Shown piece after piece: positions 49,696 to 56,100 of a DNA stretch of 64,000 nt. Each line of letters starts with the position of its first letter. Position 1 is the first letter of the stretch. A model generated the notes under the pieces. It was not told where the DNA came from, did no database searches, and was given only the letters and a program-made list of their open reading frames with translations. Source of the stretch: Bifiguratus adelaidae (lineage: Eukaryota; Mucoromycota; Endogonomycetes; Endogonales); NCBI GenBank assembly GCA_002261195.1, contig MVBO01000048.1, forward strand, positions 1 to 64,000, given 5' to 3'. The position numbers were made by a program, and so were the translations under genes.

Positions 49696-51672
49696 CTAAT
49701 CCTTGAGATCGGTGCTTGAATTTGACTCGCAAAGATCTCCTTCCATGGAATGGAAAATTGTTCGAAGTCTTGCAACCACTTCCTTCATATTAGGCCTACT
49801 CGTAGGATTGTGATCCCACATTTCTTCCACGAGCGCGATGAGTTCATGCGGAAATTCTCGCTTGAAGCCAGTCAAGGGTGGCCGTTGCTTCTTTTTGCCC
49901 ACTGAAAGCCGGTCAATACGACTCCAGTGTTCCATGCTTCCTTGTCACCTACCATTCTCATAAATCTCAAAATCATTCATATCTTCAAACGGATACTTCT
50001 TTTCAGGCCACCTCCATGTGAGAATCTCCCAAAAGATCAACGCGCAGCTGTAAACATCCACCTTTTCGTTATAAACAGGCTTGGGCGACCTGCATAACGT
50101 ATAAATAAGTTTAGTGAAAGAGATGCGAAGCCCGTACTCACCAAAACTCGGGTGCTTGCCAATTGCTTGTCCCGACCAGGGAATGCATTACACTGGCCGT
50201 AGACCTTTTGATCCTGGCCAATCCAAAGTCGTTGATTTTGGCCCTCACATTGCCATCAACTCTAGATCAAAATGGCATCGTCAGTAGAGCACGTAGGTGA
50301 CAGACGGAAAACCTACAAAACGTTGATGCTTTTGAGATCACGGTGAATTATGATAGGTTTGCGGGTATGTAGATAATGGACACCCTTGGCAATGTCCAGC
50401 ATCAATCGGACACAAACTTTTGGATCCGGGGCTTCAGTGGCACGGATATAGTCGAACAAATCACCGTGGATGCAAAGCTCCGTAATTATGGCAATAGGTT
50501 GAATTCCTCGTGTAGCTGGATCAGCATTGATGCTGACTCCTATAAATTTGACGATATTTGGATGTGAAAGTTGATGCAAAACTATTCAGGGTATCAGTAC
50601 TGTCTCGCCAGTCCATTGATATATGCATTGTCACTGACCTTCAAGTTCCTTAATGTCAAAGTCAGAAAGCTGATTTACTCGAACTTCACCAATGGCGACA
50701 GGCTCTCCATTGTAGGTCCCGGTATAGACATCTTTGAAGCCTCCGCTTCCGATCTTTTGGCCTTTCACAAGTTGGTCATATGGAATATTGAATTCCAGGT
50801 ATCCTTTGAGTTCCGGTACCGCTTCATGGACTGGTTCAGAGAACAAAGCTGGTGGTTTTGGAGGAGATGGAAAAGGAGCGTGATGAGCGTTCTCCTTCTG
50901 CTTGGTGACGGTGGTTCGGCGGCGTCTGCGTCCTTTCCGAGCAACAGTTGGCCTGGCGTTGATAGAAGGAGGCGTAAGAGGAGGGGATGGGGCGGCAACC
51001 TGTTGCGCTCTCAAACGATTCCACTCGTCGGAACTCTGCCTGCGGTTTTGCCGACGCTTTTCTTTTGGCTGAATCTTTGAGACGGACTGTTAGAATGTAA
51101 GGATTCAAGCAACAATTTCAACCATACCATTTTCAAAAGCTCACTGATAAGCTTTCCCTTTGTTTTACCGCCGGTATCTATATCGTAACGTTCACATATC
51201 GCGATCAGATCAGCCTTGGTTACTTTGGCGAGCGACTCTTCGTCTTGTTCCCCGAGTTCGGCTGTAAAACGCAATTCATGAGCTCAATGCAATCGTTGAA
51301 AGCCAAACTACCATTTGTCGACTCTACGCCAGGACTGCTGTCTGCAACCTCAGCTTCAGGGTTGAGGCAGTAAAGCGATTCCGGCGAAGTCGTATCGCTG
51401 GCAACACTGCTGGCGGTGCCATAGTGATCAGATTCATTATCTTGGTACAAAAGCGAACTTGAAGCAATTGGAACTTCCTTTTCCGAGGCTGAGACTGAGT
51501 TTCTTGCTTGAACATTCCGCTTTGCCCTCCTTCGAAGGTGGTATGGTCGACGCCGCTTCCGTGCCGTTTCACCAATAGCTAAACCTTCAATGTCCAGATT
51601 GATAGAGTCGCTCCGCTCAAGTCTTCGCCTGCGAGGCTTGGCTGTTACGACCATGCTCCGTGTTTTGACCAT
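49696..51672 (-). CDS. SAP-domain protein kinase of the TKL group with unusual catalytic lysine position
   Basis: Seven exons, complement(49696..49901, 49953..50089, 50142..50261, 50317..50581, 50639..51068, 51128..51261, 51312..51672), 550 residues. The basic Ser-rich N-terminus precedes a SAP-like helix-turn-helix (VTKADLIAICERYDIDTGGK), then a Pro-rich linker. The kinase domain begins near residue 260: GSGGFKDVYTGTYNGEPVAI, with HPNIVKFIGVS, HRDLKSINVL (catalytic Asp), DFGLARIKRS, GTSNWQAPEFW (APE) and DVYSCALIFWEILTWR. The wording places it in the tyrosine-kinase-like group. The beta-3 'VAIK' lysine is Gly (VAIGE, Gly292), while the glycine-loop strand carries Lys277 (GFKDVY), as in WNK kinases. 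The SAP domain suggests nuclear DNA binding or chromatin targeting. Probably active, but this needs testing. Confidence 0.82.
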
Positions 51673-51818: not shown

Positions 51819-53022
51819 ATGAGCCAAGCCGACGATTTACCTTCGCTTCCTGGTTTAACGCCCGCCTCCCAGACGCCTCATACCCCTGTCCAGCCTGCCA
51901 ATAGCAATTTTGATGCTACCACAGTCTTGCACTCGACCATGGATACTTTCTCAAACATTGGCTCGAGACTAAACCCGTTTGCTCAGCGACTTGGAAAGGG
52001 CTTCGGTCAAGTGAGACAGGTATGATTACTCATTTGCTGTAGTTATGTCCATCAATGTTGACGCTCTCCACCCATAGTATGCCCAAGAAAGACTTGGCAC
52101 TGCTGAAGACGTGACCGAACTTCCCCAAGAGTACAAGGACCTTGAGAAGGTAAGGGTGTGGTTCTCGTAACTGCGTTGAATGCATTTGCCATTGTTAAAG
52201 GAATTCTCGATCTTGTTGTTTAGCGTGTAGACGCTCTGCGTAACGTACACCAAAATCTTATCCGCATCACCCGCGTTCATGCTACGCAAACTTATGACTA
52301 CCCAACACAAATTCAGGAATCACTCGCAGACCTATCACGATCCGTCAATGATCGTATACAGTCTTTGACTCTATCTCCCGCCGAAAAGGAAGCGGCAGAA
52401 GCCCAAAATGCCGCCAAGCAAGAGGCTCCGCAACCAAAGACACTATCTCACGCACTCTCACGCGCTTGTGCCCAGGGAGCGGAGCAGATTGGAGTAGATG
52501 AGCCCTTCGGCGCGGCGCTATCAAAGTACGCCACTGTTCAAGAACGCGTTGGCAACGCTCGCATCGCTATGGACAATGAAATCAATACCAAGTTTGTTCA
52601 ACCTTTCAATACCACCTTGAGGACAAGTATTGAAAATGCCATGAAAGCGAGACGCAACGTTCAAGCCGCCCGATTGACCCTTGATGCCTCGAAGGGACGG
52701 TACCGCGCTGCAAAGCCTGAACGCTCCGATGCCGCTCGCCTTGAAGTTGAGCAAGCGGAAGATCAATTCGTCGCTGCCGTGGAGGAAGCAACAACATTGA
52801 TGAAGAGTGTTTTGGATACTGTGAGTGCTGATATTAACTTAAGCGCTTTCGCTTGCTAACCTGCCTTCGTAGCCCGAGCCTTTGCGTAACTTGGCCGATC
52901 TTGTTGCTGCACAAGTAACTTATTTCAAGGAAGCGCACGAGATACTCGCTGAACTCGCTCCTGAGATTGATGAGATGCAAGTCACTCAAGAGGCATTATA
53001 CCGAAATAGCCGCAACGAATAG
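51819..53022 (+). CDS. BAR-domain protein of the Gvp36 type
   Basis: Four exons, join(51819..52019, 52078..52149, 52224..52820, 52873..53022), 339 residues, with all introns in phase 0. After a Ser/Pro-rich leader, the membrane-binding amphipathic part NIGSRLNPFAQRLGKGFGQV leads into the BAR coiled coil. Family segments are YAQERLGTAEDVTELPQEYK, QTYDYPTQIQESLADLSRSV, LSHALSRACAQGAEQIG and a long helix LEVEQAEDQFVAAVEEATTL. The C-terminus is helical (YFKEAHEILAELAPEIDEMQ). Gvp36-like proteins sense membrane curvature in Golgi and endosomal traffic and actin organisation in yeast. The start ATG 51819 follows a 20-bp Pyr-rich leader; the upstream frame to 51786 has no ATG. Confidence 0.82.
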
Positions 53023-53156: not shown

Positions 53157-56100
53157 CTAAAGTTTGCCCGGCGTTGCTTGCTGGAGAACCGCGCTCACTC
53201 TTTTGAGTAACCGCTTCTCTTTGCTTTCCTTGACCTCCTTATTGTCCCTTGTTTCGCCAGTTTCAGCGGCGGTGAAGCTGTCATGCATCGAAGATCGGGA
53301 GATACTCTTGCTCAACGGGCCACCCACAGCAGCTGTTCTCTCCATGTCCACTGAAGTTCGAATGCTCGGCGAAGGACTGCCAGATTGTAGAATTGCGGAC
53401 ATATCCTGGTTAGTCTCGTTGAGAAGAGCAACATTTTTGTAGGCAAATGAATCAAATACGCCCTCTCCCTCGGATGAGTGTTGACTAGATGTATCCGACT
53501 TGCCATTCGAGCTTTCCCCCTCAGCTGCTTGGGCGTCTGTTGATACTGGTGTGTCGTAAGCTTGAGCCATTGGGCTGCTGTCCTGGGGTGAATTGACATT
53601 GACATTCATGATGCGAGAGTTGCGAGTGCTGCTGTTGTTCGACTTCGTGGCCAGTCTGGGCGTCAACATGACAGACTCATCGTAAGGTTCAATTTCTGGA
53701 GTACTGGCATGCTCAGTGTCTGGCGTATCTTTGCCGGAGAGAGCGTCCTCTCGTAGTGAAGGGCTTGCATGATCCTCAAGTGCCTTCTCGGTGTCTATGC
53801 CCAATGCTCCGGGGATTCCGCTAGCGGTCAACGGCGTGAGGGAGCCGCTGGCCATCTGCTCCAAATTGCCATGGGACAAGCGACGAATATCTGGTCTGGT
53901 ATTTCGGGCCTCAAAGTAACTAGTGTCAGTCTTGTCTAATGGGTCGGGTATGAAGGGTGCTTTCTGTTGCAGAATCGAGCTCCAGTCAACTCCGTTGAAG
54001 AATGGGTGAGCTTTTACATCTGCAAGAACAACATCGTTAGCACATGACATATCGCTTGGGATGCCTAACACAAACCTTTGGCATGGTAGCGATGTTTGAC
54101 GTCCGGATTGAGCAGCTTCTTAATCAAGTCGATAGCTTCATCCGACATTTGCATATCCTCAGGATTAGGCCATTGAACGTCTACAAGGGTGGATCGAAAG
54201 CATTCAATATTTGATCTAAGGTCATTCTTGATTTTCCTACCATGCTTTAAGATGTTCCTGAAAATCTCTTCTGGTTGGCTACCCATAAAAGGTGGGTAGC
54301 CAGTCAAGAACTCAAAGAGACAGACTCCAACGGCCCACCAGTCTACTGACGTATCGTGTCCTTTGCCAAGGAGCAGTTCTGGAGCCAGATAATCGGGTGT
54401 TCCAAGGAGAGATCGGTTGCTATCACGACGGCGAATGGACTCGGCCTTCTTGGGAGAGGATGGCGCGACCTTGAGCGCTTGGTCTGTGTCAATTGCCGGC
54501 ACAGCATCCGTTGCACCATCCTCGGTTGTCTCGCTTCCTTCCGGATTTGGTGGATGTTCGATAGTATGTGAGTGTGACTCATTGCGCTAGTACATGCATG
54601 TAAGTTCAAGTAGTGGCAATAGGTTATCATAAAAGCTTACTTGATCATGACCTGGGATCGAGATCCTTGAAAGTCCAAAGTCTGTCAACTTGATGTGACC
54701 ATCGGCACCTATGAGCACATTGTCTGGCTTCAAATCTCTGTGGGTAATGCCATTGGCGTGCAGGTATTCCAGTGCGAGCACTATTTCGGCAATGTACATT
54801 CTTGCCATATCCTCGGGGAATTGACCGTATATCTGAAGCAACGTGGATAAGTCGCCGCCAATAAGATATTCCATGACCTGAAAGAAGGCGCCGTAATGAG
54901 TCCATCATGTTCAACCATTCACTCCCGCTTGTAGCTTACCAGATACAGGTAGTCCGGACTTGAAAAAGCGAAATATAACTTAACGACGAAAGGTGTCTTG
55001 CTTAGACTTAAGACTCGCTTCTCAGCCAAAACATGAGTCACCATATTCTTGCGAATCATGTCCTCTTTTTTCAGGATTTTGATGGCATAGAAGTCACCTG
55101 TTTTCTTCTTCTTTGCCAAGTAGACCTTGCCAAAGGAGCCGCGACTGATCGGCTTTATAATCTCAAAGTCACGGATACTGGGCATCCGATGCTTGCGTTT
55201 TCCTTCATGTGACTATAACGAATTGGTAAGTCTCGTTGCTAGCTGAGCGTTGAAACGTACCTCTGAGCGCAAAGTTGAACTTGACTGCGATCCGGATGCC
55301 ACGGATGTTGTGGATGCAACGGAAGCGGTTCTGGCAGGCTTTCTACGCTTAGCAGCTTTGGCAGCTCTGGCCACCCTGGTGGCTTTTAGCATTGCGGCGA
55401 ATAGCGAAATGAACCCTCGATGACGCTCCCCAACACCGAGGGATGAAGTAGCCTGGCGGATAACTGCTGGACCCATGGCCGAGGTTCGCGTTGAGACCAA
55501 GGCTTGATTACCGCTCTTGATACCTTTCCCGTCTTAAAATATGTTAACATCTGCGAACATAGATGCCGTCAGACTTACCATTCGCGGACTGACTCGACAA
55601 TGTAGAAGTTGAACTGTCTGATCTTCGACGAGGTGGCATGGATTCCGCGATATAATCCTTTCTACTTGCTGAACTTGACGTCCTTCGACGAATAGTTGCG
55701 TTGTCACCCACAGAAAGTGATGTTTGTGACTTCGCGTCTGTTGTGCTCTGGAGGTAGCTCTTGGTCACATCGATTTTTTCATCCATGACATGCAGTATAC
55801 GTTTCGCTATCGCAAGCAAATCTTCATCAACTGTTGATCCCTCGCGGTGACCGGCGATTGACATCGTCTTGTCCACCTTGTGACGACAGCTTTCAGAAAT
55901 CCGAAGAATTTCCTGAGGAGTCTCCTTTTGGCCGATATTAGCTATGCGATTAGTGTATTTTTCGAGGTGCTCGGCATCCTTAACATTGTAATAGTCGTAA
56001 TATGGCGTGTTCCGTTCTACAATCTCTGCTTTTCGCTGCTCAATTGCCGCAACCAACTTCCTCAGTCTGCCATCGCAACTTCGCTTTTTGAGCTCGTACT

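Follow-up and report, generated by a model that had tools for sequence, protein, structure and literature searches.

Does a protein kinase whose beta-3 lysine has given way to glycine hold ATP with a lysine placed elsewhere, and is such a replacement peculiar to a single gene? These questions were raised by a kinase gene in the window, i.e., the whole stretch of 64,000 nucleotides of Bifiguratus adelaidae DNA analysed here. An earlier note on this DNA had described the lysine swap as a trait of this one kinase gene; the swap proved to be real but wider than that, being an old trait of a family. We think it likely, judging from sequence, that the gene belongs to an old SAP-TKL family of fungi and aphelids in whose ancestor the lysine was relocated, and that Lys283 would be the ATP lysine of an active, DNA-tethered kinase.

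Gene model and domain content of the window kinase

Removal of six GT..AG introns of 41–57 bases each leaves a single frame running from 51672 to the stop, with the kinase exons in frame with those of the homologues. The start is either 51672 or the second Met (codon 51654–51652), and the length of 556 aa assumes 51672. The features of the gene are as follows:

51672..49696, minus strand: SAP-kinase gene, 7 exons, 556 aa, stop codon at 49698–49696
51672–51312, 51261–51128, 51086–50639 and 50581–50317, minus strand: exons 1–4
50261–50142, 50089–49953 and 49901–49696, minus strand: exons 5–7
51134..51232, minus strand: SAP-like helix-loop-helix, residues 131–163 (LAKVTKADLIAICERYDIDTGGKTKGKLISELL), in exon 2; Pfam 12.8 bits, family SAP profile 17.7 bits
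49771..50765, minus strand: protein kinase domain, residues 273–532, with four introns inside; Pfam Pkinase 2.9e-45, PK_Tyr_Ser-Thr 1.3e-44
50727..50750, minus strand: glycine-rich loop GSGGFKDV, residues 278–285, its glycines and aromatic residue kept in the family
50733..50735, minus strand: proposed ATP lysine Lys283, codon AAA, replacing the third glycine of the loop (PKA Gly55), where WNKs carry their lysine
50688..50690, minus strand: Gly298, codon GGT, standing in for the VAIK lysine of beta-3; the strand reads VAIGEVRV
50646..50648, minus strand: Glu312, the glutamate of alpha-C, with which Lys283 is proposed to form a salt bridge
50337..50345, minus strand: HRD motif, residues 394–396
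50222..50230, minus strand: DFG motif, residues 414–416
50147..50155, minus strand: APE motif, residues 439–441

Pfam recognised one complete protein kinase domain in the window protein, with the glycine loop, alpha-C Glu, HRD, DFG and APE all present, and the codons of the alpha-C Glu, HRD Asp, DFG Asp and APE Pro are intact. Inspection of the codons bore out the earlier statements that glycine replaces the beta-3 lysine in an otherwise intact set of HRD, DFG and APE motifs (50690–50688 is GGT) and that a lysine occupies the WNK position in GSGGFKDVY (50735–50733 is AAA). The two residues had been named correctly, but as Lys277 and Gly292; in the 556-aa model they are Lys283 and Gly298, and the earlier numbers, 6 lower, fit a start at the second Met. 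The range reported then, 50639–51068, falls within exon 3. In the predicted model of the window kinase, the loop block has a pLDDT of 71.

Just upstream of the kinase gene, on the opposite strand, lies an exon of a BAR-domain protein (52224–52859, plus strand; BAR_2, 132 bits). The exons of a second protein kinase (54068–54889, minus strand; Pkinase family matches at 54068–54442 and 54650–54889) are found about 2.4 kb upstream of the SAP-kinase start.

Lysine swap across the family

Homologues were collected with three queries, namely the window protein, a divergent member and a protein of the aphelid Amoeboaphelidium, and the best 120 of 277, 296 and 263 matches, respectively, were taken. The counts below cover the 264 distinct proteins listed in this way plus the window protein, which were split by score gaps in the lists into 181 family rows (the window and 180 homologues) and 84 other rows, with P0205 set apart from the family as a WNK. 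The gap in family-profile scores is narrow (217 bits for the lowest family row, the fragment P0158, and 213 for the top other row, P0172), and the profile was built from members matched by the window-protein query, so that its scores lean to the family.

In the profile alignment, Lys was found at position 283 in 176 of the 177 readable family rows listed; the loop site is blank in P0160, P0161, P0163 and P0224, and in P0161 so is the beta-3 site. The beta-3 site of the 180 family rows listed holds 93 G, 54 A, 26 S, 5 C, one T and one K, i.e., a small residue (G/A/S/C) in 178. Among the listed family rows, the alpha-C Glu is present in 179/180, the HRD Asp in 177/178, the Asp, Phe and Gly of DFG each in 180/180, and the Glu of APE in 181/181, with its Pro in 169/181. 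The 84 other kinases, 83 of them readable, have G (75), A (7) or K (1) at the loop site and K at beta-3 in 80, and the reverse pattern, no loop Lys with a beta-3 Lys, occurs in 80 of the 83 listed. The sole other row with a loop K is P0205, a plant WNK scoring 271 bits against human WNK3. Lysine at the loop site in nearly every family row and in one other row, itself a WNK, implied that the swap is not a matter of chance. The same division was seen in an 81-row MAFFT alignment (89 rows minus 14 plus 6), in which 44/44 family rows have a loop K and G/A/S/C at beta-3, and 27/27 TKL rows and 6/6 own-genome rows have G/A in the loop and K at beta-3.

The candidate exceptions were rejected one after another. 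P0225 begins just after the loop-Lys codon, at an apparent exon edge; P0164, seemingly a K,K intermediate, lacks its beta-3 strand and reflects an alignment artefact; and P0217 (K,T) is a damaged model with a scrambled beta-3. In P0228 the loop lysine sits in a piece preceding an exon-edge-like break, and P0167 carries an intron-like insert. Genuine Lys+Lys intermediates were absent among the proteins listed. The covariation of the two sites, on which the earlier reading depended, was thus found: Lys283 together with a non-Lys beta-3 residue is fixed across the family rows listed, none of which has a genuine beta-3 Lys.

The 12 members without the APE proline read AVE or AAE (P0012, P0018, P0028, P0031, P0033, P0044, P0050, P0051, P0054, P0057, P0059 and P0096). 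The named ones belong to Tilletia, Meira, Kalmanozyma or Tilletiopsis (smut-like), and nine of the 12 also miss the SAP match described below.

Extent of the family

The closest match listed is a Calcarisporiella protein (60% identity over 72% of the query region). Among the matches listed, the named basidiomycete members come from mushrooms, Tilletia, Malassezia, Rhodotorula, Phakopsora and Kwoniella, and the other named members from Mucoromycota, Rhizopus, Mortierella, Rhizophagus and other Glomeromycotina, Coemansia, Basidiobolus, Dispira and Calcarisporiella. Two aphelid proteins are also among them, that of Amoeboaphelidium and P0128, whose prefix Partr we take to stand for Paraphelidium. 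No ascomycete or chytrid member occurs among the named rows of the matches listed, and the chytrid proteins P0178, P0180, P0184 and P0197 fall among the other TKLs, outside the lysine-relocated family. Three of these four have the beta-3 lysine; P0184 has F there.

When the B. adelaidae genome was searched with two family proteins, a second member did not turn up. Calcarisporiella thermophila has two, P0001 and P0079, one in the branch of the window protein and the basidiomycetes and the other in the Mortierella/Glomeromycotina-type branch, suggesting that the family may include two or more old paralogues.

Placement of the family among TKL kinases

The earlier assignment to a TKL-like kinase was upheld by sequence neighbours, fold neighbours, trees and a C-lobe motif alike. 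The sequence and fold neighbours are CTR1/RAF/MLK-like, the nearest solved structures being CTR1, MAP3K12 and RAF; a WNK chain was absent from the 50 entries shown of the 1000 chains returned by VIA-align, which gives no evidence of a different fold. Five family rows share 34–40% identity with the six nearest TKLs vs 27–33% with WNKs. Three careful trees, whose sampling comprised the window, 44 of the 180 homologues and three WNK rows, grouped the family with TKLs, apart from WNKs and from the other own-genome kinases, with supports of 96/92, 99/92 and 90/82 (the last not starred). The trait columns were removed for the first two trees and the N-lobe for the third; the 96/92 tree left out 10 long rows, and the 90/82 tree dropped 6 more rows from the 81-row alignment. 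A quick tree, which left out the own-genome kinase own_L019 as too short, gave the same placement with an SH-aLRT of 87. Trees constrained to a family+WNK clade were 9.6, 13.8 and 10.4 log units worse, and the AU test did not reject that clade (p 0.128, 0.123 and 0.152, the last without the N-lobe).

The C-lobe pointed the same way. The TK/TKL motif W-x6-RP is present in the window protein and in the family rows with letters there (W 43/43, P 42/43), compared with W 19/27 and P 22/27 in TKL rows and L/I and L in WNK rows. A Trp before APE occurs in 14/27 TKL rows, i.e., TKL-type residues are not universal even there. The WNK C-lobe wording CDNIF, GTPEFMAPEMYEE and EYPYSEC, taken from human WNK3 and from L001, the WNK of the same genome (which has close forms), is without counterpart in the window protein, where KSINVL, GTSNWQAPEFW and KYPFEDM stand instead. 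L001 itself (contig C236:18499–19230, plus strand) lies in a 702-aa open frame, reads LLGRGAHKVVY...EVAWN and scores 308 bits against human WNK3 vs 127 for the next kinase (PAK). As L001 is a true WNK, B. adelaidae has two lysine-relocated kinases.

A sister relationship between the family and the WNKs, under which the relocated lysine was inherited and one relocation sufficed instead of two, seems rather unlikely to us. The window kinase does have the lysine arrangement of a WNK, its beta-3 site lacking a lysine and its PKA position 55 having one. The loop of the plant WNK P0205 (GSGAFKDVY) is similar, threonine at a gatekeeper-like site is shared by 3/3 WNK rows and 34/44 family rows, and the AU test does not reject the family+WNK clade. 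This common ground is set against the tree support and the cost of the constrained trees, the CTR1/RAF/MLK-like neighbours with their higher identity, and the presence of a true WNK in the same genome. The independence proposed in the earlier note, there for one kinase, is favoured by the trees, for the family as a whole, but the AU test does not reject a link to WNK; with that reservation, we infer a relocation separate from that of WNK.

SAP-like motif upstream of the kinase domain

The earlier note had also coupled the kinase to a SAP-type domain. In the window protein, Pfam SAP (PF02037) stays under its curated cut-off of 23.9 bits, so that this much of the claim fell short, but a SAP-like motif was found upstream of the kinase domain across most of the family. 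Twenty-four members with a precomputed Pfam SAP served to build a family SAP profile, which was applied to other proteins with at least 60 residues ahead of the kinase. The best of 197 shuffled controls reached 1.0 bits, against the score of the window protein given above, and a score of at least 8 bits was reached by 119/135 family N-termini, 0/197 shuffles and 0/62 proteins of the other group (P0228, a family row, being among those 62). With Pfam SAP, a match at E<=0.1 was obtained for 48/63 members of subset A1, i.e., 63 hand-chosen proteins, mostly under about 560 aa, of the 120 matched by the window-protein query. At E<=1, 7/8 members scanned matched, all under the curated cut-off; the remaining one, P0001, scores 29.2 bits with the family SAP profile. 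These matches suggested that the SAP-kinase pairing is ancestral. The 16/135 family members that miss at 8 bits include several Tilletia- and Meira-type (smut-type) proteins, in which the motif seems lost or unrecognisable.

Exon 2 alone was predicted as two helices (pLDDT 81), and Foldseek found no significant fold match for this model (best E 5.0). SAP domains elsewhere serve in DNA tethering and nuclear location. Most likely, the SAP-like motif and the basic stretches of the protein would anchor the kinase to nuclear DNA or chromatin.

Proposed role of Lys283 in catalysis

We propose that the lysine anchoring the phosphates was relocated in the family ancestor, from PKA K72 on beta-3 to PKA 55, where the glycine loop ends. 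Lys283 would span the small Gly298, touch the alpha and beta phosphates of ATP and pair with the alpha-C Glu312, as is thought for Lys233 in WNK1, while HRD and DFG would function normally, making the protein a putative active Ser/Thr kinase and no pseudokinase. Since the swap is fixed together with an intact HRD, DFG and alpha-C Glu, Lys283 as the ATP lysine of an active enzyme is the simplest explanation. The small beta-3 residue fits a model in which space is needed there for a side chain extending across from beta-2.

For the WNKs, a beta-3 cavity has been proposed to bind chloride or small ligands. An extended version of our proposal, to which we allow a slim chance, would have the relocation occur once in the TKLs, independently of WNK, before the aphelids split from the other fungi and persist ever after, the cavity left by the small beta-3 residue bind chloride or another small ligand, and the family members act as nuclear sensors of ions, osmotic state or crowding.

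That the loss of the beta-3 lysine ended catalysis, leaving a scaffold protein in which the loop lysine is incidental, appears quite improbable. In the accessible passages of the literature, kinases lacking VAIK are commonly classed as inactive (PMC4280135), and, of the kinase groups, the TKLs are said to have the largest number of pseudokinases, chiefly those of plants and fungi (PMC10211241). A scaffold needs none of HRD, DFG and the alpha-C Glu, and these are fixed from fungi to aphelids together with a loop lysine conserved as strongly as HRD and DFG, which weakens this explanation.

It is highly improbable that another basic residue, such as Arg301 of beta-3 (GEVRV), has taken over. Position 301 is R or K in 39/45 aligned family rows, but the remaining six rows, some of aphelid type, have S, Q, D or N there, whereas position 283 is K in 45/45, and no other basic position between residue 272 and about 322 is invariant; to our knowledge, there is no precedent for a basic beta-3 residue standing in as Arg301 would. 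A sequencing or gene-model error at the Gly298 codon, conceivable because there is a single assembly only, is so very unlikely as to be negligible, since homologues carry G/A/S/C at the same site and the conserved frame runs through it.

Comparison with known kinases

WNK1-4 and the plant WNKs resemble the family in the PKA 55 lysine, the missing beta-3 lysine, the alpha-C Glu and HRD. At beta-3, Cys or Asn is seen in the three WNK rows, which are without the TKL-type C-lobe of the family (the Trp before APE, W...RP and the WE in FWEIL). Unlike WNKs, the family has the SAP motif upstream, and WNKs are less similar to it than TKLs in sequence and in trees. The canonical TKLs (CTR1, RAF, MLK and TNNI3K; STY13/HT1 in plants) are nearest by sequence, fold and tree, but differ in having Gly/Ala in the loop, the VAIK lysine at beta-3 and no SAP match, as counted above. 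The Coprinopsis kinase P0020, labelled 'TKL/TKL-ccin' in the database, is a family member by sequence, lysine swap included, and differs from the window protein in its 955 aa and its long acidic N-terminus. The literature passages on TKL-ccin say nothing about the lysine, and their functional hints (the Coprinopsis CC1G_05652 fruiting cluster and a Lentinula phosphosite) gave no tie to this family.

The FslK kinases are, as is this family, fungal and TK/TKL-like. As far as the accessible passages go, they are a fungi-specific lineage, sister to tyrosine kinases, that occurs only in chytrids and Agaricomycetes and was lost in Ustilagino- and Pucciniomycotina (PMC3937382). The family differs from that range in occurring where FslK was lost and in early-diverging fungi, with members from Tilletia, Rhodotorula, Phakopsora, Rhizopus, Mortierella, Coemansia and the aphelids.

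WNK and POMK are the precedents known to us for a relocated lysine, and bacterial CAK-chloro is a suggested third. According to the accessible passages, the lysine at PKA position 55 of WNK1 replaces K72 and is needed for catalysis (PMC1821047; PMC10211241), the positive charge of POMK is shifted from PKA 72 to the loop/beta-2 (PMC10211241), and for CAK-chloro the same shift is only suggested by the authors (PMC1821047). The substrate of POMK is a sugar on dystroglycan, and CAK-chloro is a kinase-like family; neither is a TKL ePK with a SAP motif. The same kind of passages record WNKs from microsporidia (PMC4280135) and a 2007 survey in which no functional ePK family but WNK lacks the beta-3 lysine K72 (PMC1821047).

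Significance of the relocated lysine

In the passages of the open-access literature that we could consult, neither a report of a relocated lysine in fungal TKLs nor a function that ties to this family was found. A survey of pseudokinases was reportedly made by Kwon et al. in 2019. What the comparison of sequences points to is a TKL that may work like a WNK, with no claim of being one, in which the relocation probably arose anew. Another ePK lineage with the swap would be a natural replicate of the movement of the catalytic lysine, and the family allows asking whether the special regulation of WNK stems from the swap or from ancestry. It is also a warning that fungal TKLs classed as pseudokinases for a missing VAIK may be active, in a family that spans mushrooms, smuts, rusts, moulds and mycorrhizal fungi.
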